A stretch of DNA of 64,000 nucleotides, from positions 1-64,000 of the forward strand of contig NZ_SJOH01000003.1 of the NCBI RefSeq assembly GCF_004331285.1. Reading direction: 5' to 3'. The translations under genes were made by a program, and so were the position numbers. Positions 1,480 through 64,000 of this stretch are shown here, one piece after another (position 1 is the stretch's first letter; every line of letters begins with the position of its first letter). A model generated the notes under the pieces. It saw only the letters and a program-made list of their open reading frames with translations. It made no database searches and was not told the origin of the DNA. This DNA comes from Acinetobacter sp. ANC 3781. Lineage in GTDB: Bacteria > Pseudomonadota > Gammaproteobacteria > Pseudomonadales > Moraxellaceae.

Positions 1480-2073
1480 TTAGTTAAATGTCTTAAAGCG
1501 TAGCTTATCATCCATAAAGGTTTTCTCTCCGGCAGGTGCCTCAATTGAACCAAACACCAGCTGAGCACGTAATTTCCAGTTCTTAGGAATATCAAAAGTT
1601 TGGGCAACTTCTTCATCAATTACAGGATGATAGTGCTGTAATGAAGCCCCTATATGGTGTTCTGCCAATGCTGTCCATACCGCAAACTGTGCAATACCGG
1701 TGGAATGCTCTGACCATGCGGGGAAATGATCTGCATATAGTGCAAACTGCTCTTGCAACGACTTCACTACATCTTGATCTTCATAAAATAAAACGGTGCC
1801 ATAACCTGCTGCAAAACTATTAATTTTTGTATCAGTTTTTTCAAAGGCGTCTTCTGGCACCATTTTACGGAGTGTTTCACGCACGATATTCCAAAACTTG
1901 GTATGTGATTCTCCATAAAGGGTAACAATACGTGAGGTTTGCGAATTAAAAGCAGATGGACTATTGCGTACCGCATCTTTAATAATTTCTTCGATTTTAT
2001 CTTGTGCCAATGGAATATTTTTACCGATTGAGTAAATGCTGCGGCGTTGTTTCATTTGATCTAGAAATGACAT
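1480..2073 (-). CDS. Nitroreductase family protein
   Basis: The 197-residue protein has the small nitroreductase fold signature of the fungal-Frm2/HBN1-like branch: an N-terminal QRRSIYSIG motif that binds the FMN phosphate, then NSPSAFNSQTSRIV, and GIAQFAVWTAL and GASLQHY segments. Such enzymes use FMN and NAD(P)H to reduce nitro or quinone-like compounds in the cytoplasm; the substrate cannot be read from sequence. It forms a tandem pair with the next gene upstream (2272-2973), which has the same motifs, so a local duplication is likely. A terminator follows at 1431-1459. Confidence 0.88.
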   Translation of the reverse strand: MSFLDQMKQRRSIYSIGKNIPLAQDKIEEIIKDAVRNSPSAFNSQTSRIVTLYGESHTKFWNIVRETLRKMVPEDAFEKTDTKINSFAAGYGTVLFYEDQDVVKSLQEQFALYADHFPAWSEHSTGIAQFAVWTALAEHHIGASLQHYHPVIDEEVAQTFDIPKNWKLRAQLVFGSIEAPAGEKTFMDDKLRFKTFN

Positions 2074-2229
2074 GATTTAATTCCCTCTGATTTTTGTTAA
2101 ACATTATTAGGATGAGTTTATCTTATGTTAATTCCATAATGAGTACATGACTAAAAAAGTGACATTGTGTTTTATTTATAGAACAATTTTATGAAATATT
2201 TCTGAATTTTATGCTGATGTAAAAAATAT

Positions 2230-2254
2230 AAAAGCACCGATAGTAGGTGCTTTA
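2230..2254 (-). terminator. Terminator after nitroreductase 2
   Basis: The stem AAAGCACC / GGTGCTTT, ending in a T-run on the minus strand, follows the gene ending at 2272. It suggests that the two nitroreductase genes are transcribed separately. Confidence 0.7.
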
Positions 2255-2271
2255 TTTGCTTATAGTATCGA

Positions 2272-2973
2272 TTAGACCAGTATTCTAAATCGTTCGCCAT
2301 CTTGTGGATGATGTTTAAAGTCAGCTTCCTGTTCAATTGAACCAAAAACCAGTTGTGCTCGAAGCAACCACGATGCGTCTATATTAAAATAGTCTGCAAC
2401 TGCTGAATCTATACTCGGATTATAGTGCTGCAGGCAAGCTCCAATCCCCGAATCAGCCAAGGCCGTCCATACTGCATATTGCGCCATACCTGAAGTCTGT
2501 TCTGACCAAACTGGAAAATCACCCGCATTGAACGGGATTTTCTTTTGTAGTCGCTGAATGGTTTGCTGATCTTCATAAAAAAGTACCGTACCAAAACCTG
2601 CGGCACACTGCTCTATCTTCAATTCTGTACCGGCAAAAACATGCACTGCAACCAATTTGCGTTGTACTTCTTTAACAATGTCCCAAAACTTTTCATGAGA
2701 CTCACCAAATAGCACCATAATTCGTGAACTTTGAGAATTTAAGGCCGATGGACAACTTCGTACCGCTTCCTGAATCAGTTCTGCCAAATAGGCTTGACTA
2801 TAATGAACCTTCTTCCCAAGCACATAGATGCTGCGACGTTTTTTCAAATGATCAACAAAAGTTAATTGCTCTATTTCTTCAGCAGCTCTTTTTTTAAGCT
2901 TAAAATCTTTGGTGATATCTGACTTCAGGACATGCCCAATTTTTTCTAACAATGCCACAGCAGTACTCCCCAA
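2272..2973 (-). CDS. Nitroreductase family protein, paralogue with N-terminal extension
   Basis: From about residue 38 this protein aligns block by block with its downstream neighbour (KKRRSIYVLG, SCPSALNSQSSRI, GFGTVLFYEDQ, GMAQYAVWTALADSGIGACLQHY, LRAQLVFGSIE), so it is a second FMN nitroreductase of the same subfamily. The reading frame has no ATG before the conserved region. The only usual candidate is a TTG at 2973, which gives a 37-residue Lys/Glu-rich extension and has no good ribosome site. The frame is open back to a TAG further upstream. The true start is therefore uncertain; the core is intact. Confidence 0.8.
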   Translation of the reverse strand: MGSTAVALLEKIGHVLKSDITKDFKLKKRAAEEIEQLTFVDHLKKRRSIYVLGKKVHYSQAYLAELIQEAVRSCPSALNSQSSRIMVLFGESHEKFWDIVKEVQRKLVAVHVFAGTELKIEQCAAGFGTVLFYEDQQTIQRLQKKIPFNAGDFPVWSEQTSGMAQYAVWTALADSGIGACLQHYNPSIDSAVADYFNIDASWLLRAQLVFGSIEQEADFKHHPQDGERFRILV

Positions 2974-3090
2974 TAATACGAATGTCCAAGTTTTTAATAT
3001 CTGTTGATGCTAATCGTTTCCAGAAGACTTCTTTGAATAATTTATTTTTAGATGTTGTTTTTTAAATCAAACAATTAGCTTAAAAACAAC

Positions 3091-3113
3091 AAACTCCGCA
3101 CTTGGCGGAGTTT
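3091..3113 (-). terminator. Terminator of ftsY
   Basis: A perfect 9-base stem AAACTCCGC / GCGGAGTTT with a 5-base loop lies 20 bases past the ftsY stop codon. Confidence 0.8.
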
Positions 3114-3132
3114 ATGTGAAACATCAAGCATT

Positions 3133-4236
3133 TTACTTTTCTGTTTCAAATAATGCTGCAACAAACGATTTTGCCGAGAATGGACGTAAATCGTCGATTT
3201 TTTCACCTACACCAATAAAACGAATCGGCACATGGGTACGACTGGCAATATTAAACAGCACACCACCCTTAGCCGTACCATCAAGTTTAGTAATGGTAAG
3301 TCCGGTTAGGCCAACAGCCTCATCAAACATTTCGACTTGACTAATCGCATTTTGACCTGTGCCGGCATCAACCACCAACATGATTTCATGCGGTGCAGTT
3401 GCATCAATTTTTTGCATTACGCGTTTAACTTTGGTGAGTTCTTGCATCAAGTGGCTTTTATTATGTAGACGCCCTGCAGTATCAGCAATAAGTACATCGA
3501 TACCTTTAGCACGTGCACTTTCAAAGGCATCAAAAATGACCGAAGCACTATCTGCACCATGACCTTGCGATACCACTGCAATATTATTACGCTCACCCCA
3601 AATTTGAAGCTGTTCTGTCGCTGCAGCACGGAAAGTATCACCCGCTGCCAACATGACTTTCTTGCCTTCACCTTGTAATCGTTTTGCCAGTTTACCAATG
3701 GTCGTGGTTTTGCCAACACCATTGACACCCACCACTAAAATAACGAACGGCGCTTTATTTGGATCAATGTGTAAAGGCTTGACACGTGGAGCCAGAATCG
3801 CCACTAATTCTTCTTGCAAAGCTTTATACAATGAATGTGAATAGATCAAATCACCACGCGTAGTACGCTCGGTTAAATTCGCAATAATAGTTTTAGTCGC
3901 GTCAACACCGATATCTGCAACCAGTAGTTGCTCTTCCACTTCCTCTAATAATTCATCATCGATTTCTTTACCACCGATCAGAATATTCACCATGCCATCG
4001 GCAAGGTTTTTACGAGTTTTGGTTAAGCCGACTTTCATGCGGCTAAAAAAGCCACTCTTAGATGCATCATCTTGCTCAGTTTCTGTGGCTACAGGCGCAG
4101 AAACAGTTGTTTGTTCTTGTTTTGGAGTTTCAACAATAGGTACATTTACCGCAGGTAAATTCGGTAAAGTGACATCGTCATCCCCGATATCAGCATCAAT
4201 CAAAAATTTATTTTGCCCATTAGATTGCTGTTGCAT
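3133..4236 (-). CDS. ftsY: Signal recognition particle receptor FtsY
   Basis: FtsY is the membrane-associated GTPase that docks SRP-bound ribosomes at the Sec translocon. The 367 residues show an acidic, low-complexity A domain (about 1-65), a helical N domain (about 66-160) and the SRP GTPase G domain. G-domain motifs are [10 protein letters not shown] (about 170-179), the [11 protein letters not shown] insertion-box start, DTAGRLHN, and [10 protein letters not shown] near the C-terminus. Length is shorter than E. coli FtsY because of a smaller A domain, as is usual in this group. It is divergent from the M16 peptidase gene starting at 4394, an arrangement seen in other gammaproteobacteria. 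Confidence 0.98.
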
Positions 4237-19805: not shown

Positions 19806-20888
19806 ATGAAAAAATTGCTTCTCGCTGCTGTAGTAGCGGCTATGGGGACGAGTGCAGCACAAGCGGCACCAACTTTGTACGGTAAAGTGAATGTTAGTGT
19901 TGACAGTTATGATGATGGAAAAGATGACAAAATAGAACTTAACTCAAATGCTTCCCGTATTGGTGTTAAGGGTGAAGAGAAACTGACTGATAAACTCGCT
20001 GCTGTTTACCAAGCAGAATGGGAAATTGATGTCGATGGTGGAGATGATGTATTTAAAAAACGTAATATTTTCGCCGGTTTAAAATGGGCTGATATCGGTA
20101 CTTTAAAAGCAGGTATTATGGATACCCCATTTAAAGACGCTGCTGGCGGCTATCGTGATGTATTTAATGACTATGCACACGCTGACATTAAAGAAATGAT
20201 GTACGGCGAAGAGCGTGTAGAAAATGTTATTGGCATTGAAACCGATCCAAAACTGATGGGTGGATTAGTTTTCGCTCTTCAAGCGCAACAAGGTGAGTCC
20301 ACCAGTGATACTGTAAACTATACAGATGGTGCTCGTGATAGCGTTGGTGATGGACTTTCTACTTCACTTTCATATGCCAATAAAGATTTAGGCTTTGAAG
20401 GTGTTATTGCAGGAAACTTCAAATCCATAGGTGACTTTGCTGCTGTCGGCATCTCAAATGCTCCTGCTGATGCAATCCGTATTGGTGGCTCTTTCGACCT
20501 AGGTAAAATTGGTGCGACTGGTTTATATTTAGGTGCAATGTGGCAAACTGCAGAAATCTCTGATTACTTAGGTACTGAAACCTACAAGAATGTAGAAGAA
20601 AAAGCTTGGTTAGTTTCGGCAACGTATAAGCTTGCAAATACCCCTTGGTCTTTTAAAGCTCAATATCAAAAAGCTGACACTGACTGGACTGTAGCTACAG
20701 GGACTGGCGATACTTCGGCAAAACAATGGGGTATTGGTGCAGATTACAAACTAAACAGCCAAACCAAATTATTTGCGAATGCAGTACAACGCGAGTGGGA
20801 CAATAAGCGCACAAACGTTGGAGCTGCTGCAGCAATTCCAAATGCTGATGAAAATGTTTACGGCTTAGGTATGGAAATTAAATTCTAA
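19806..20888 (+). CDS. Gram-negative porin
   Basis: The 360-residue outer membrane porin has a signal peptide (about 1-20, ending AQA), then the porin start APTLYGKVNVSVD. The GVKGEEKLTDKLAAVYQAEWE block and the DIGTLKAGIMDTPFKDA block are hallmarks of 16-stranded trimeric porins (OmpC/OmpU-like superfamily). It ends in a Phe (MEIKF), the usual BAM signal. A GGAGAAATCTCA ribosome site precedes the ATG. The 200 bases upstream are AT-rich and fit a strong promoter, but I cannot name a regulator. Confidence 0.93.
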   Translation: MKKLLLAAVVAAMGTSAAQAAPTLYGKVNVSVDSYDDGKDDKIELNSNASRIGVKGEEKLTDKLAAVYQAEWEIDVDGGDDVFKKRNIFAGLKWADIGTLKAGIMDTPFKDAAGGYRDVFNDYAHADIKEMMYGEERVENVIGIETDPKLMGGLVFALQAQQGESTSDTVNYTDGARDSVGDGLSTSLSYANKDLGFEGVIAGNFKSIGDFAAVGISNAPADAIRIGGSFDLGKIGATGLYLGAMWQTAEISDYLGTETYKNVEEKAWLVSATYKLANTPWSFKAQYQKADTDWTVATGTGDTSAKQWGIGADYKLNSQTKLFANAVQREWDNKRTNVGAAAAIPNADENVYGLGMEIKF

Positions 20889-20906
20889 GTTCACAACAGT
20901 TAATAT

Positions 20907-20934
20907 GAGACTGCCTAAGGGCGGTCTTTTTTTA
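20907..20934 (+). terminator. Terminator of porin gene
   Basis: The stem GACTGCC / GGGCGGTC (one G-T wobble) followed by seven T residues lies just after the porin stop. Confidence 0.82.
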
Positions 20935-20935
20935 T

Positions 20936-21354
20936 CTGAACTCAATATTCAGGACAGTTTTTATAAAGAGTCTCTTTAACTTTCACACCGCCTTATTCTA
21001 TTTTTTTAAATACTCAAATTTTAATTAAAATACAACCCAATCTCATTTAATAAATATTATCCCGCGATAAAACAAAGTATTTTAGTCAACTTTAAAATAT
21101 AAAAATACAACTGTTTTAGTCAACTTTAAATATAATATATGAGTATTTTAGTCGGGATTAAAAATATTAATACTAAGTGTTTTAGTCAACTTTAAAATAG
21201 TCAAATATTAGTTTATTTTTTAATAAACCATATTATTAACTTATTGTTTTAATTAATATAAATAATATATTTTTATTTTAAGTGTTTATTCTATTTATTT
21301 TTAGTTACTTTTTGTTTAATAATATAATTATATTTTAAAAATAGGCTTATTTGC
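20936..21354 (+). promoter_or_regulatory. AT-rich regulatory region upstream of cyd operon
   Basis: About 420 bases without a coding frame between the porin terminator and cydP. It is extremely A/T-rich, with long T- and A-tracts. It holds four evenly spaced TTTTAGTC sites at 21077-21197 (annotated separately). The promoter of the cyd operon must lie in or after this region; several AT hexamers fit a -10, so I do not choose one. Confidence 0.7.
21077..21197 (+). repeat. Four evenly spaced IscR-like sites upstream of cytochrome bd
   Basis: Four direct copies share TTTTAGTC followed by AAC or GGG and then an A/T-rich tail: about 21077-21097, 21112-21130, 21143-21164 and 21177-21197. The start of TTTAGTC lies at 21081, 21115, 21147 and 21181, giving spacings of 34, 32 and 34 bases, about three helix turns. 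The half-site AGTCRRS of the E. coli IscR type 1 consensus is met in all four; the left half is only partly kept (AAGT, AACT, GAGT, AAGT in place of GACT). The palindromic site at the iscR promoter (63721-63739) has the same core. Binding by IscR is an inference. Confidence 0.65.
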
Positions 21355-21546
21355 ATGAGCTTAATACCCAAAGATTTTAATCAAAGATTAGTTAGAGAGA
21401 TTACAATCATATTAATAATTAAGATTGCTCTTTTGCTGCTGATTAAAAATATCTGGTTCGACGCGCCCACTATTCCCAAAAATTTTGACTCTCAAGTTGC
21501 CGAGCGTATTGCCGGCAGTCCTTCCCAAATCAAGGAGACACGTTGA
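21355..21546 (+). CDS. cydP: Cytochrome bd oxidase small subunit CydP
   Basis: The 63-residue protein has one membrane helix (about 16-34, [19 protein letters not shown]) preceded by the basic NQRLVREI, the pattern of the CydP putative small subunit found directly upstream of cydA in gammaproteobacteria. Its TGA stop shares a base with the cydA ATG, so translation is coupled. It probably sits in the bd oxidase complex in the inner membrane. Confidence 0.82.
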
Positions 21547-23132
21547 TGATTTCTGAAAGCGTGGTCGATCTTTCGCGGTTCCAATTTGCAATGACCGCGT
21601 TGTATCACTTTATATTTGTACCTCTTACTCTTGGGCTGGCTTTTATTCTTGCCATTATGGAAACCACTTATGTGATTTCCGGTAAGGAAATTTATAAAGA
21701 CATGACCAAATTCTGGGGAAAACTTTTTGGTATTAATTTTGCCTTAGGGGTAACTACAGGCTTAACCATGGAGTTCCAGTTTGGTACAAACTGGGCGTAC
21801 TATTCGCATTATGTCGGTGACATTTTCGGTGCGCCACTGGCTATTGAAGGATTAATGGCATTTTTCTTGGAATCGACCTTTATTGGTCTTTTCTTCTTCG
21901 GCTGGGATCGACTTTCCAAAGCTCAGCATTTAGGCGTGACCTGGCTGGTTGCACTCGGTTCCAACATGTCGGCACTGTGGATTTTAGTTGCCAATGGCTG
22001 GATGCAAAACCCTGTCGGTGCAGCGTTTAACTTTGAAACCATGCGGATGGAGTTGGTGGATTTCGGCGCGCTGATTTTCAACCCGGTGGCTCAGGTTAAA
22101 TTTGTCCACACTGTATCTTCAGGTTATGTGACTGGTGCAGTTTTCGTTCTGGCAATTTCCAGCTATTACTTGCTCAAAAAACGTGATCTGCCCTTTGCAC
22201 GCCGTTCTTTCGCGATTGCTGCAATCTTTGGTTTAGCCTCTACATTATCGGTTATTTTACTGGGCGATGAATCAGGTTATGAGCTGGGTGATGTACAAAA
22301 AACCAAATTAGCTGCAATTGAAGCAGAATGGGAAACTCACCCAGCTCCCGCTCCATTTACATTGTTTGGTATTCCAAATCAGGAAGAACAACGCACTGAC
22401 TACGCTATTCGCATTCCATATGTGATGGGTATTATTGCGACGCGTTCCCTTGATAAAGAAGTGACTGGTTTGAAAGACTTGATGGTTCAACATGAGCTTC
22501 GTATCCGCAATGGTATGAATGCGTATGCCGAACTTGAAAAACTTCGTGCAGGCGATCGCTCTCCAGCACTTATGGCGTCTTTCCAAGAAAATCAGAAAGA
22601 CCTGGGTTATGGCTTGCTTCTTAAAAAATACACACCAAATGTAGTGGATGCCTCTGAAGAGCAAATCAAGGCAGCAACCAAGGATACTATTCCTAACGTA
22701 ACTGCCCTGTTCTTCTCGTTCCGTGCCATGGTTGCTTCTGGTTTCTTGATGCTGCTTCTGTTTATCCTGGCAACTTATGCAGTGGCTAAACGCAATGCAG
22801 AAAACAAACCGTGGCTGCTTAAATTTGCACTTTACGGACTTCCATTGCCTTGGATCGCTACACAGACTGGCTGGTATGTGGCTGAAGGTGGACGTCAACC
22901 GTGGACCATTGGTGAGGTTTTACCTACACATCTTTCTGCTTCAAGCTTAAGCACTGGTGATATTTGGGGTTCAATCTTAGCGCTTGCAGCGTTCTATACA
23001 GTACTTCTGATTATCGAGATGTACTTGATGATCAAATTTGCTCGCTTAGGTCCAAGTTCTTTACATACTGGTAAATACCATTTTGAAAAAGCTGATGCTC
23101 AAAACCACGCTGCTGCGGAGGCTCAATCATGA
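21546..23132 (+). CDS. cydA: Cytochrome bd ubiquinol oxidase subunit I
   Basis: CydA carries the three hemes of the bd-type quinol oxidase, which reduces oxygen to water with high affinity. The 528-residue protein begins with the [23 protein letters not shown] helix; His at about 21 is the heme b595/d ligand. It contains the periplasmic Q-loop (about 255-345) and the C-terminal [16 protein letters not shown] motif. The ATG at 21546 was chosen over the TTG one codon upstream because an AAGGAGA site lies 7 bases before it. It overlaps cydP by one base and cydB by four (ATGA). Confidence 0.98.
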
Positions 23133-24274
23133 TCGAATATGAATTACTCAAAATCATTTGGTGGGTTCTGGTGGGTGTACTGCTGATTGGCTTTGCCCTC
23201 ACCGATGGCTTCGATATGGGTTCCATGGCAATTATGCCATTCGTGGGCAAAAACGATGACGAACGTCGTGCGGCAATCAATACCATTGCCCCACACTGGG
23301 ACGGTAACCAGGTCTGGTTCATTACTGCTGGTGGTGCACTATTTGCTGCATGGCCTATGGTTTATGCCACAGCATTCTCCGGCATGTACTGGGCGCTCCT
23401 GCTTGTACTTTTCGCTTTATTCCTCAGACCTGTAGGCTTTGACTATCGTTCTAAACTTGAGAACAAAAAATGGCGTACGTCTTGGGACTGGGGTTTAGCT
23501 GTTGGGGGTGCAGTTCCTGCATTAGTGTTCGGTGTTGCCTTCGGTAATATGTTCTTAGGTGTACCATTCACCTTAGATGAAACAGTACGTTCAACTTATA
23601 CCGGTAGCTTCTTTGCACTGCTTAATCCGTTCGCGATTGTTTGCGGTCTGGTCAGCCTATCTATGCTGTGCGCGCATGGCGGGGCCTGGTTAATGCTTCG
23701 TACAGATGGCGACTTACATGCACGTTCTGCGAAAGCAACTCAATTGATGGGTGTTATATTCCTGGTTTGCTTCTTGGGTGCAGGTGCGTGGTTATACTTC
23801 GGTAGTATTGAAGGTTATAGCCTAGCGCAGCCATTTGATACCAATGGTGTAGCAAATCCATTTGCCAAAGAAGTCATTACCAATGCCAACCATGGCTGGA
23901 TGAATAACTATTCAACTTATCCAATCACCATGATTGCACCTGTAATGGCAATCTTGGGTAGCCTGATTGTGATTGCATCTGCTGCGAAAGCAAAAGCGGG
24001 GTTAAGCTTCCTGGGCACATCGTTCATGGTGATTGGTGCAATTTTAACTGCCGGTTTTGCATTGTTTCCATTCCTTATGCCTTCAAGCATCAATCCTGTT
24101 GCAAGCTTGACGATGTGGGATGCAGTATCAAGTAAAAATACACTAACTGTAATGACAGTTGCGGCCTGCATTTTTGTTCCAATTATTTTGTGCTACACCA
24201 CTTGGTGTTATTACAAAATGTGGGGCGTTATTACCAACAAACACGTTCAAGAAAATTCACACAGCCTCTACTAA
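23129..24274 (+). CDS. cydB: Cytochrome bd ubiquinol oxidase subunit II
   Basis: The 381-residue CydB has the expected eight to nine membrane helices and the conserved starts [19 protein letters not shown] and [19 protein letters not shown]. It is the structural partner of CydA in the inner membrane. Translation is coupled through the ATGA overlap with cydA. It is followed after 31 bases by cydX. Confidence 0.98.
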
Positions 24275-24305: not shown

Positions 24306-24407
24306 ATGTGGTATTTTGCTTGGATTCTCGGGATTTTAATGGCGTGCTTTGCAGGCGTATTAAGTGCCCTTTATATCGAACATCATCAAGACTTAGATGA
24401 GGAATAA
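24306..24407 (+). CDS. cydX: Cytochrome bd oxidase small subunit CydX
   Basis: This 33-residue protein (MWYFAWILGILMACFAG, then VLSALYIEHHQDLDEE) is a classic CydX/YbgT: a single membrane helix with the MWYFAWILG start and an acidic C-terminal tail. CydX stabilises the hemes of the CydAB complex. The ATG follows an AGGAGTTATTCAAT ribosome site. Confidence 0.95.
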   Translation: MWYFAWILGILMACFAGVLSALYIEHHQDLDEE

Positions 24408-24410
24408 ACC

Positions 24411-24707
24411 ATGACAGAAATCGCAATGACAGCAGAAGAAAGCAAGCCAAATAAGTTCGTAATGGCCATTTCATTTTTGATGGCATTGCCGCTTGCTACA
24501 GTGCTATTGATTCACCCTGCCCTCATGCTAGATGCCAATGGTCACTACAACCATAGTGCATTGATGATGATCATGATCGGGATTTCAGGTGGATTTATTT
24601 ACGGAGTAGGATTTCTGCCGAAGTTCTGGCTGTGGAAATGGCTGTTTAGCCCATATATTGCATGGCCGTTAATGATCTGGGGTTATTACACCTGGTTCCT
24701 CACCTAA
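24411..24707 (+). CDS. ybgE: Cyd operon protein YbgE
   Basis: The 98-residue protein has three membrane helices (about 17-36, 48-67, 78-96) and the GFIYGVGFLPKFWLWKWLFSP segment typical of the YbgE family. YbgE is encoded at the end of many cyd operons; its role is not established. It starts 3 bases after cydX, and a terminator closes the operon. Confidence 0.88.
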   Translation: MTEIAMTAEESKPNKFVMAISFLMALPLATVLLIHPALMLDANGHYNHSALMMIMIGISGGFIYGVGFLPKFWLWKWLFSPYIAWPLMIWGYYTWFLT

Positions 24708-51364: not shown

Positions 51365-54304
51365 TTAGTTTACTTGTTTGATCTCAAAACCAAGTTCAAG
51401 CAACGTGTCACGCTTAGCCACTGGTGCGACCACTGCTCTTACGGGTTTTTGCTGAACCAGATATTGTTCTGCAACGCGTTTTAAATCATCCAAAGTCACT
51501 GCAAGTAAACGTGCACGTAACTGCTTACGAACTGCCGGCGTACGTGCATGCAATAAAGCATAACAAGCACTAATGGCTTCACCCGCAGGAGAACCCGGTT
51601 TGTCCATGCTCGCAACTAATCCTAAAATTGCTTCTTCAAGTTGATGCGGTAAATGCCCGGTATTCACCAACCAGTCAATACTTGCTTCAAAATCTTTAAA
51701 CGTTTCTGCCAAACGTGGATCACGATAGCTATAGAAACGGAACGAGCAGGCATTACCATCATAGCTGGCACCACCACCGTAAGCGCCACCTTTTTCACGA
51801 ATTGCACTATGCAAGAAGCCATTACGCAAATATGCAGCCAACACCATTAAAGGTGCCGCATCCGGATGAGATACCTCTACAGCAGGATAAGCTGAAGCAC
51901 AGAATTGAACATTGGCCTGAATTAACCATGCTTCGTCTTTATTGCTATTTTCCGTGAAAACTGTCGTTAATTCTAGCGGCGTTTGATCGATGGCCAACTT
52001 GTCCCAAACGTCCTGAATTTCTTCAATCAAACGATCTGATTGATGTTCTTCGCACACCAGCAAGAATTGCTTCGGTGCTTGTAAAAGTACACGATGAATG
52101 GCTTTCAATTCAGCAATTAAAGCATCATAGGCAGCTTCGTCATTTTCAATTTTAGTCACCAGCTCAGTTAACCAGTTTAGCGCACCCAAACCGGTATTTT
52201 GATAGTCACGTTGGGCCAAGGCGCTACAATTACGTGATGCAATTTGCATGGCATAACTATGACCAGAACCTGAAATGCGTGATTGCCAACGTGTTTTACG
52301 TTGCTGCAACAATTCAATAATGCGGTCTTTTTCATCAAAACGCAGTTGTTCAAATGCCAATTTTAATATACGAATCGCTTCAAAATTATTCACCAACGAC
52401 TTAGTCGTTAGTGTTAACCATGCGCTGATTTTATTTTTATCATCGAATTTCGAACGTAAAGATGCGCCCATCCCTACACCACCGCTGACTGCTGTTTGTA
52501 GTTGCTGAAGCTCAAGATAATCGTATTCGCCGGCACCAACTTCGCCCAACAAAACAGCCAGCAAGTTGAAATATGGTGACTGTACCACCGCATCCGGAAT
52601 TTTCACCAGCACCTGTTGATAATAGATACCATTGGTACCTGCATGGTACAGATTCAAAGGTGTATCGTGATTATTACTGATAATTTCACGCAATTGACCT
52701 TGTACAATATGCAGATCAGCAGGCACATCTTCCAGTCCAACTTTTGGCAACAAGTTCATATCATCTGGAGTATCCTGGCGAACTTTTAACGCTTCGGTTT
52801 GCTTGATGATTTCAGCTTTTTGCTCATCCGTAAGTTTGGCACCAATTTCAGCTAAACGTGCTTTCTCTGCTTCTGCTTCTTTCGCAGATTTAGTTGCATC
52901 CGGTACTAAAGTCATTTGCACACGATGGGTATTATCCAGTAAATGCTCTTTAATCAGATTCGACAACCACATTGGATCTTTGAGCTCTTCTTTGACTTGC
53001 TCAATTGCAGTATCCACATCCCAAACATGAAGCGGGTCATTGTGATGAATCACACTGCCTAAACCGTTTAAAATCAGGCTTAGCCCATAGGGCATACCGT
53101 CACCATTGATCTCACGCTGATGCAATTCAATCTGATGCAAAATCGCATCGACCATTTCAGCATCGACAGGTTTAGAGGCAACTTCTTCCAAAATTTTAAA
53201 TACACCGTCTTTAAATTCTTGTGCATGTTCCGGGTTTGACCCTTGTACACCACAGAAGAAGGTCATTTCAAAGTTAGAATCATCCACACCCATAATTGGA
53301 CCGGTAGATTGTGCATAATCACAGGTTTCCAGATAATGACGTAATGGCGAAGCAGAATCTTCCAGCAAAATCCCTTCAACCAGACGCATACCCAAACGCA
53401 ACTTAATATCGCTTGCTTCAGGCAATAGCCATGAAATGATGTGATAGGTTTTATCTTTTAAGTCTTCAGCATCTAGTGCATAAGTTTCTGTCACTTCAAC
53501 CGGTGCAGTCAAACGTGTTTCAGGCGTTGAATGCAGCGTTTGACCTTTCTCAAATTTAGACAAAGCTAAGGTTTCGAATTGTTCTTGTAAATGATAGGCA
53601 GATTCATTACCAAAAGTCATAAACACCGCATTACTTGGATGATAATGTGACTTATAGAAATCAACCAACTCTGGGTAAGTTAAATCTGGAATATCTCTAG
53701 GATCACCACCTGAATTGTAATGATAGGTGGTTTTCGGGAATAAATGATGCGCCAGTTGATGATACAGCTGATCGGAAGGAGAACTCATCGCCCCTTTCAT
53801 CTCATTAAACACCACGCCTTTATAGACAGGTTCGCCATTTTCCAGTTCAATACGAATACCTTCTTGTGCAAAATCAAGTTCGTTTAAGTTTGCAGCAAAA
53901 GCAGCATCTAAATAGACTTCCAACAAGTTTTGAAAGTCTTTTTTGTTTTGTGTTGCAAATGGATAGGCCGTCCAGTCTGCTGAGGTAAAAGCATTCATAA
54001 AGGTGTTGAGTGAACGACGAATCATCAGGAAGAATGGGTCACGAACAGGGAATTTTTCAGAACCACATAATGCGGTATGTTCTAAAATGTGCGCCTCACC
54101 CTTTGAATCCATGGGTTGAGTACGGAAGGCCACCAAAAAGACATTCTCATCAAGTTCGCTTGCAAGGTGATAATGCGTTGCACCGGTTACTTTATGTTTA
54201 TATTCAGACACAAAAACGTCTAAGGCCTCAACATGGTGTTGACGTATCAACTGAAACGCAGGATGAACAGTTTGAGTAATGGTTTCAGTGACATCTACAG
54301 TCAT
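51365..54304 (-). CDS. M16C (presequence protease-type) zinc peptidase
   Basis: The 979-residue protein is a single-chain M16C peptidase like human PreP and bacterial homologues. It has the zinc motif HILEHTALCGS, a GVVFNEMKGAMSSP segment, an M16C-associated middle domain, and a C-terminal half without the motif. Such enzymes degrade free peptides in a closed chamber. There is no signal peptide, so it is probably cytoplasmic. The ATG at 54304 with an AGGAGATCAC site was chosen. It is the third M16 protein in this window. Confidence 0.95.
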   Translation of the reverse strand: MTVDVTETITQTVHPAFQLIRQHHVEALDVFVSEYKHKVTGATHYHLASELDENVFLVAFRTQPMDSKGEAHILEHTALCGSEKFPVRDPFFLMIRRSLNTFMNAFTSADWTAYPFATQNKKDFQNLLEVYLDAAFAANLNELDFAQEGIRIELENGEPVYKGVVFNEMKGAMSSPSDQLYHQLAHHLFPKTTYHYNSGGDPRDIPDLTYPELVDFYKSHYHPSNAVFMTFGNESAYHLQEQFETLALSKFEKGQTLHSTPETRLTAPVEVTETYALDAEDLKDKTYHIISWLLPEASDIKLRLGMRLVEGILLEDSASPLRHYLETCDYAQSTGPIMGVDDSNFEMTFFCGVQGSNPEHAQEFKDGVFKILEEVASKPVDAEMVDAILHQIELHQREINGDGMPYGLSLILNGLGSVIHHNDPLHVWDVDTAIEQVKEELKDPMWLSNLIKEHLLDNTHRVQMTLVPDATKSAKEAEAEKARLAEIGAKLTDEQKAEIIKQTEALKVRQDTPDDMNLLPKVGLEDVPADLHIVQGQLREIISNNHDTPLNLYHAGTNGIYYQQVLVKIPDAVVQSPYFNLLAVLLGEVGAGEYDYLELQQLQTAVSGGVGMGASLRSKFDDKNKISAWLTLTTKSLVNNFEAIRILKLAFEQLRFDEKDRIIELLQQRKTRWQSRISGSGHSYAMQIASRNCSALAQRDYQNTGLGALNWLTELVTKIENDEAAYDALIAELKAIHRVLLQAPKQFLLVCEEHQSDRLIEEIQDVWDKLAIDQTPLELTTVFTENSNKDEAWLIQANVQFCASAYPAVEVSHPDAAPLMVLAAYLRNGFLHSAIREKGGAYGGGASYDGNACSFRFYSYRDPRLAETFKDFEASIDWLVNTGHLPHQLEEAILGLVASMDKPGSPAGEAISACYALLHARTPAVRKQLRARLLAVTLDDLKRVAEQYLVQQKPVRAVVAPVAKRDTLLELGFEIKQVN

Positions 54305-54456
54305 GTGATCTCCTAATGTATACATATTTATCAGATATTATGATTATACCTGAATCTTGAACTATATGGATTCGTACAGTTACGAATTTCCTAGCATTTC
54401 AGTCTAGTTTCAACCTTGTTCCTTTTTAAGCAGAATCAACACTATTTTCAAGCAAA

Positions 54457-63671: not shown

Positions 63672-63720
63672 ATATACATTTTTTCTTCTAAAACGAAACA
63701 ACTTAAAGCCTAATAAAAAA

Positions 63721-63739
63721 CTTGACTATTTTAGTCAGG
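63721..63739. promoter_or_regulatory. IscR type 1 operator overlapping the iscR promoter
   Basis: The 19 bases CTTGACTATTTTAGTCAGG match the E. coli type 1 consensus SYYGACTRWWWYAGTCRRS at every position. The site covers the -35 of the iscR promoter, so bound IscR would block RNA polymerase: the classical autorepression by [2Fe-2S]-IscR. The match is seen; binding is inferred from family knowledge. Confidence 0.85.
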
Positions 63740-63750
63740 ATTCTTAAAAT
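63722..63750 (+). promoter_or_regulatory. iscR promoter (sigma70)
   Basis: -35 TTGACT (63722-63727), 17-base spacer, -10 TAAAAT (63745-63750), about 27 bases before a likely untranslated leader and the ATG at 63784. The palindromic IscR site is built into the -35 and spacer. Confidence 0.82.
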
Positions 63751-63783: not shown

Positions 63784-64000
63784 ATGCGTCTTACTACTCG
63801 CGGTCGCTACGCAGTGACTGCTCTACTTGATTTAGCTTTGCAGCCAACTGAACAAACGATCACGCTTGCTGAAATTGCAGCCCGTCAAACTATTTCTGTG
63901 GCTTATCTTGAGCAGCTATTTGCGAAATTAAAGCGTCACGGCTTAGTGTCTAGCGTACGTGGTGCCAACGGTGGCTACCATCTTGCTCGTCGCGCTGATG
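63784..64000 (+). CDS. iscR: Fe-S cluster assembly transcriptional regulator IscR (partial)
   Basis: The first 72 residues match IscR: MRLTTRGRYAVTALLDLAL, then the winged-helix region ITLAEIAARQTISVAYLEQL, and FAKLKRHGLVSSVRGANGGYHLA. The three cluster cysteines lie beyond the right edge. IscR represses the isc operon when it carries a [2Fe-2S] cluster and controls other genes in apo form. The isc genes are expected to follow. Confidence 0.97.
   Translation, partial: MRLTTRGRYAVTALLDLALQPTEQTITLAEIAARQTISVAYLEQLFAKLKRHGLVSSVRGANGGYHLARRAD

Follow-up and report, generated by a model that had tools for sequence, protein, structure and literature searches.

The window analysed here, a stretch of 64,000 nucleotides from Acinetobacter sp. 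ANC 3781, carries an operon for cytochrome bd, a back-up respiratory enzyme, and at its far end the beginning of the gene for IscR, a sensor of iron-sulphur cluster health. The operon has the order cydP-cydA-cydB-cydX-ybgE-like gene. The gap of 466 bp upstream of cydP is bounded by a porin-like gene and its terminator (20907-20928), and within it a row of predicted dyads begins 286 bp and ends 162 bp ahead of cydP, counted from the start codon. The features to which we refer are the following.

21069..21093, + strand, predicted IscR-like dyad 1 (centre 21081), by motif match
21103..21127, + strand, predicted IscR-like dyad 2 (centre 21115), by motif match
21135..21159, + strand, predicted IscR-like dyad 3 (centre 21147), by motif match
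21169..21193, + strand, predicted IscR-like dyad 4 (centre 21181), by motif match
21283..21350 (approximate limits), + strand, AT-rich block conserved ahead of cydP and probably containing the promoter
21355..21546, + strand, cydP (NF045611, over the cut-off)
21546..23132, + strand, cydA (ATG at 21546, TTG at 21543 in the list of open reading frames; NF011677, 930.6 bits, cut-off 968)
23129..24274, + strand, cydB (TIGR00203, over the cut-off)
24306..24407, + strand, cydX, 33 aa (named from position and sequence)
24411..24707, + strand, ybgE-like gene (TIGR02112, 46.8 bits, below the cut-off of 89.6)
54386..54410, + strand, predicted single site, lying 74 bp before a presumed M16-type peptidase gene on the - strand (51365-54325)
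63718..63742, + strand, predicted iscR operator of the IscR type 1 form, by motif match
63784..64000, + strand, iscR, cut by the window end (residues read from the full reading frame)

NF011677 is the best NCBIfam match of CydA yet falls below its curated cut-off, whereas CydP and CydB score above theirs. On its + strand, the cyd upstream region contains nothing that matches a sigma70-like promoter at 9 of 12 positions; the promoter-like matches inside the array belong to the minus strand and draw on TTGACT. A search of 20800-21600 against Rfam gave no match at E<=1.

The preliminary description of this DNA had reported four direct copies of a short sequence before cydP, and these are indeed present: TTTTAGTC occurs on the + strand at 21080, 21114, 21146 and 21180, at intervals of 34, 32 and 34 bp. 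The repeat finder TRF gives a period of 34, 3.7 copies and a score of 136; three or more copies were seen in 0/20,000 Markov resamplings of the 466-bp gap, and the window as a whole has 11 copies against a shuffle mean of 3.6. The copies had been matched to the right half (AGTCRRS) of the E. coli IscR type 1 site. That right half is perfect in all four (AGTCAAC, AGTCAAC, AGTCGGG and AGTCAAC), but the comparison of cyd regions replaced the half-site reading with one of full dyads that have a degenerate left half. When compared with YYGACT-N5-AGTCRR, the window copies agree at 6/6 positions of the right half and 3-4/6 of the left, and the means over the 482 sites described below are 4.9/6 and 3.5/6. 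Consensus counting alone is uninformative here, since YYRACTANTTTAGTYRR with two mismatches allowed is not enriched in the genome (139 occurrences, against 327 for the reversed control).

Of 175 Acinetobacter genomes, 164 gave a CydA match, which in eight was only weak (best E 1e-67 to 1e-69). From the matches listed, 145 cyd upstream regions were taken in all, G044, G157 and G013 (contig ends) and G152 and G119 (region limit) being left out. The first 130 comprised 127 with a cydA start anchor, of which 125 were long enough; L023 and L045 were too short, and L125, L128 and L131, which have no cydA anchor, were moved to the hold-out set. An iterative matrix collected 482 sites from the 125 regions, two to five per region, with two, three, four and five sites in 4, 35, 61 and 25 regions, respectively. 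The unit is a dyad of 25-27 bp with the consensus TAAATCCAACYATTTTARTYRGNTTTA, whose centre and register are those of an IscR type 1 operator. Across the 482 sites, A at -4 and T at +6 reach a frequency of 1.00 after rounding, and position -5 is usually A, as opposed to G in IscR type 1. Scored against the E. coli type 1 consensus, taken in part from the preliminary description, cyd sites average 17.1/25 versus 10.2 elsewhere, and against the type 2 consensus as printed in the excerpted text of PMC11475020 they average 15.9/26 versus 13.0.

Because the matrix was trained on these same cyd regions, Markov-resampled regions served as controls: three or more sites were found in 121/125 real regions and 0/375 resampled ones at a threshold of 8, and in 95/125 and 0/375 at a threshold of 18. 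Among the 18 hold-out regions, 10 have at least three sites; at least two are present in all 13 of those with a cydA anchor, while the five without one have none to two sites and no regular array, from which we take the array to be common and not universal. The idea of an operator array had been considered open to refutation by a lack of conservation upstream of cyd in relatives, and the array proved to be present in most of the Acinetobacter regions examined. A consensus pair pattern gave matches in 56/99 genomes, many at cyd and many scattered, the profiles being more sensitive. Outside Acinetobacter, genomes with a CydP match from four further genera of the Moraxellaceae supplied five cydP regions, and these show no array.

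Adjacent sites are spaced 31-35 bp apart in 225/357 pairs, 40-46 bp in 79 and 36-39 bp in 8, which suggests placement of the dyads on one face of the DNA. The regular spacing claimed in the preliminary description therefore holds, but a helical period does not stand out, the periodogram staying level at 0.60-0.70 from 9.5 to 12.5 bp, so that the one-face placement is read solely from the two spacing peaks and the few pairs between them.

The likeness of the cyd repeats to the iscR operator could be addressed with matrices trained without the cyd sites of this genome, which were used for the window and genome scans and for the tests on iscR, erpA, ompW and control promoters. Such a model ranks the four cyd sites 1-4 in the window and the iscR operator fifth, bearing out the claim of a common motif; with the four sites included (482 in total) the iscR operator is again fifth, and it is first when the matrix is made symmetric. 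In the scan of the whole genome, in which 150 of 3340 first-look candidates were scored, the iscR operator is 13th of 39 with E=0.39, and several of the sites above it have no evident Fe-S rationale. The cyd-trained matrix finds a site at p<0.01 in 32/32 iscR promoters, although these operators, being almost the same in sequence, do not count as independent cases. The site is at -53 or -54 in 29; in the other three species (L152, L161 and L371) it is an added dyad of the array type, at a distance of 33-35 bp from the canonical operator. Scans of 17 other genomes at E<=0.3, with 150 of some 1,900-4,100 first-look candidates scored per genome, found the iscR promoter in at least five, among the matches listed.

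IscR itself retains C92, C98, C104 and H107, which we take to be its [2Fe-2S] ligands, as well as Y41, E43, Q44 and R59, with S40 replaced by A. Its best NCBIfam match is TIGR02010, just under the cut-off (197.9 versus 207.6). Two Rrf2 proteins exceed the Pfam cut-off in the genome, IscR and an NsrR-like protein beside hmp.

In E. coli, erpA is a target of IscR. Acinetobacter erpA promoters carry a site by the cyd matrix at p<0.05 in 22/26 loci and at p<0.01 in 18/26, in a test chosen after one erpA match had already been seen (L405; locus L417) and with 4/30 loci skipped by the start-finding rule; the site centres are near-constant, about 100-115 bp before the start codon, and many of the sites score low (5-12 bits). 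Among 51 control genes of the window, iscR and the cyd operon excluded, three have a site at p<0.05 and one at p<0.01. The latter is the gene at 51365-54325, presumably for an M16-type peptidase (the name is our own), whose site recurs in five other Acinetobacter genomes (six loci); we know of no link between such a gene and IscR.

Further targets were surveyed at E<=0.3 in the 17 genomes and from the own-genome list, the matches being taken in part (L347-L376 and 40 regions) and 90 loci being used. For 12 of these loci the nearest gene is more than 450 bp away, and among the clusters of downstream genes 34 are singletons, many of which may be chance matches. Sites recur at four loci each before apbC, before a small membrane protein and before a signal-peptide-like protein beside a response-regulator gene. 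Two loci each were found for hemN/hemF, trhP, cyoA, bacteriohemerythrin and a metallo-beta-lactamase-like protein, and one each for erpA, ydiU (selO) and hmp; the two-locus and single targets are weak evidence. The targets are named by family match, apart from hmp, whose name is presumed from our own reading, as are the descriptions of the proteins left unnamed. For iscR, trhP and bacteriohemerythrin the one site stands 54-80 bp upstream. The cyoA gene, for a bo-type oxidase, has a single upstream site in two genomes (L283, 1501-1527; L404). A gene for a YeeE/YedE-like transporter is preceded by a dyad with one mismatch to the consensus (L282, 1435-1459), which ends 8 bp ahead of its start codon.

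A second array is found at ompW. In strain ANC 3781 itself, three sites form an array in front of a gene for an OmpW-like protein, whose NCBIfam match is below the cut-off, and three or more sites are present at 27/30 ompW loci, three of whose regions do not end on ATG, versus 0/600 resampled regions; the spacing is mostly 26 and 34 bp. This second array, before an ompW-like gene, is seen at L269 (1501-1585). Seven Acinetobacter genomes (G009, G070, G080, G085, G128, G147 and G153) yielded neither cydA nor ompW, the G128 assembly being 65% complete; this co-absence is not strict, as cydA alone is missing in G003, G005, G117 and G148, and ompW alone in G045 and G101.

Given the dyad form, its register, spacing and conservation, the motif common to the iscR and erpA promoters and the array at ompW, all of them visible in the sequence, we regard an IscR operator array as the best reading of the row upstream of cyd, and as a probable one. 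The binding of IscR, its cooperativity and its sign at the array are what we infer. A regulator of the Lrp/AsnC family, whose octamer wraps DNA and can occupy a number of short dyads spaced by about three helical turns, could bind this array, and the predominance of 31-35-bp spacing would suit it; the excerpted text of PMC8941935 adds that BPROM predicts an Lrp box in the promoter of A. baumannii ompW and that Lrp rises 1.94-fold in hypoxic infection. However, the dyad of 25-27 bp stands in the IscR register, its motif recovers the iscR and erpA promoters, and no Lrp/AsnC gene was recognised by eye adjoining the surveyed sites, which makes such a regulator quite improbable. Another dimeric regulator, of MarR, TetR or GbsR/CydE type, might control cyd and ompW, with a convergent likeness to the iscR operator; we hold this to be improbable. 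At -5 and in its outer positions the motif does differ from a strict IscR type 1 site, and the GbsR-type repressor CydE of Alishewanella controls cytochrome bd from operators upstream of the bd operon, with a link to sulfur compounds (PMC6096048, in extract). Apart from this likeness of placing and signal, the Alishewanella system differs in its protein and in having two sites of other sequence, the two CydE footprints in that extract being unlike our dyad by eye, and the recovery of Fe-S promoters by the motif also speaks against a regulator of this kind.

Enhancer sites for a sigma54 activator, or FNR-type sites, would be a highly improbable explanation. Tandem dyads about 33 bp apart would suit sigma54 enhancers, and in a second genus of the Moraxellaceae cydP is preceded by a promoter of the sigma54 type; but the sigma54 motif is found in 0/127 Acinetobacter cyd regions and GG-N10-GC in 0/125 between array and cydP. 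Both Lrp/AsnC and sigma54 enhancer arrays resemble the present one in having several dyads at about 33-bp spacing and differ from it in site sequence. A canonical FNR box (TTGAT-N4-ATCAA) with an FNR of the cysteine-cluster type is contradicted by the dyad spacing, with half-sites 9 bp apart versus 6 in FNR, and by the proteins of the genome itself, in which two Crp/FNR-type proteins exceed the cut-off and show, by eye, no FNR cysteine cluster. The least probable occupant is NsrR. It belongs to the same Rrf2 family as IscR, and in A. baumannii both cydAB and hmp-nsrR go up with sulfide (PMC7315123, in extract), but the hmp-nsrR locus has a different palindrome of its own, AAGATGTATTTTAAATACATCTT, and this ATGYAT-type operator is absent from the array.

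With IscR as the regulator, the four dyads would be occupied by its dimers, and transcription of cydP-cydABX-ybgE would follow iron-sulphur cluster status. A shortage of Fe-S clusters would relieve autorepression at the single iscR operator, the level of IscR would rise, and the additional protein would fill the array of less canonical sites and, acting from upstream, raise cyd. The array is probably well above the promoter; its distal position, with no good sigma70-like + strand promoter between it and cydP, suggests action from upstream, and since neither a sigma70-like nor a sigma54 motif accompanies it at that distance, steric repression is not the obvious mode. Upstream activation or anti-silencing at cyd is plausible. 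We would give an even chance to activation of cyd from the array by the rise of IscR on Fe-S shortage; the opposite sign, in which holo-IscR would repress cyd until clusters are damaged, appears nearly as likely. With either sign, cyd and ompW would be expected to increase on Fe-S stress, and iron-sulphur status may be coupled both to respiration and to the outer membrane. A wider proposal, which we put forward as possible but doubtful, is that IscR could be the main Fe-S and oxygen regulator of aerobic respiration in Acinetobacter, covering both terminal oxidases (cyd by a distal array, cyoA by a single site), ompW, the oxygen-binding bacteriohemerythrin and haem synthesis; arrays of weak sites would read IscR abundance cooperatively, and single sites would serve classical repression.

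In published work, sulfide raises cydAB in A. baumannii, with no direct regulator named in the extract (PMC7315123); under silver, ompW is up in the wild type and, at a high dose, cydABX is up in a tolerant strain (PMC12647597). Hypoxia brings OmpW down to 0.38-fold, a change contrary to that in E. coli, for which the authors went no further than proposing Lrp (PMC8941935), while CydA is enriched in normoxic vesicles and lower in hypoxic ones, which concerns vesicle cargo and not expression (PMC10016710). An induction of the bd oxidase under low oxygen, as the preliminary description had assumed, is thus not borne out for Acinetobacter by these extracts; the sulfide, silver and hypoxia data would loosely fit induction by Fe-S stress under either IscR sign. 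Arrays at both the cyd and ompW promoters make IscR one candidate regulator for the two, which is directly testable, and a naturally repeated operator array that differs among species offers a system for the study of IscR action at a distance. A search of titles and the starts of abstracts in one open-access library gave no IscR array at cyd and no Acinetobacter IscR regulon, which does not prove their absence from print.

The Acinetobacter motif shares with the E. coli IscR type 1 operator the dyad centre, the AGTC right half, the AT core and the AT-rich flanks, and it also serves the organism's own iscR promoter, as type 1 operators do in E. coli. In contrast to that operator, the cyd dyads have a degenerate left half and outer AAAnCC/GGnTTT that is partly type 2-like, and unlike the known E. 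coli IscR promoters they come two to five in a row, far upstream. In Caulobacter, an iscR mutant is changed in terminal oxidase genes including bd, an effect explained there through fixK repression (PMC11475020, in extract), whereas in Acinetobacter the sites stand before the oxidase operons themselves.

The sigma54-type promoter before cydP in another Moraxellaceae genus is seen in L250 (747-762) and L251 (688-703), and the divergent gene in L250 reads by eye as a sigma54 activator (GESGTGKE). This points to an Acinetobacter arrangement that may be lineage-specific, and control of the bd oxidase may differ between Moraxellaceae genera.
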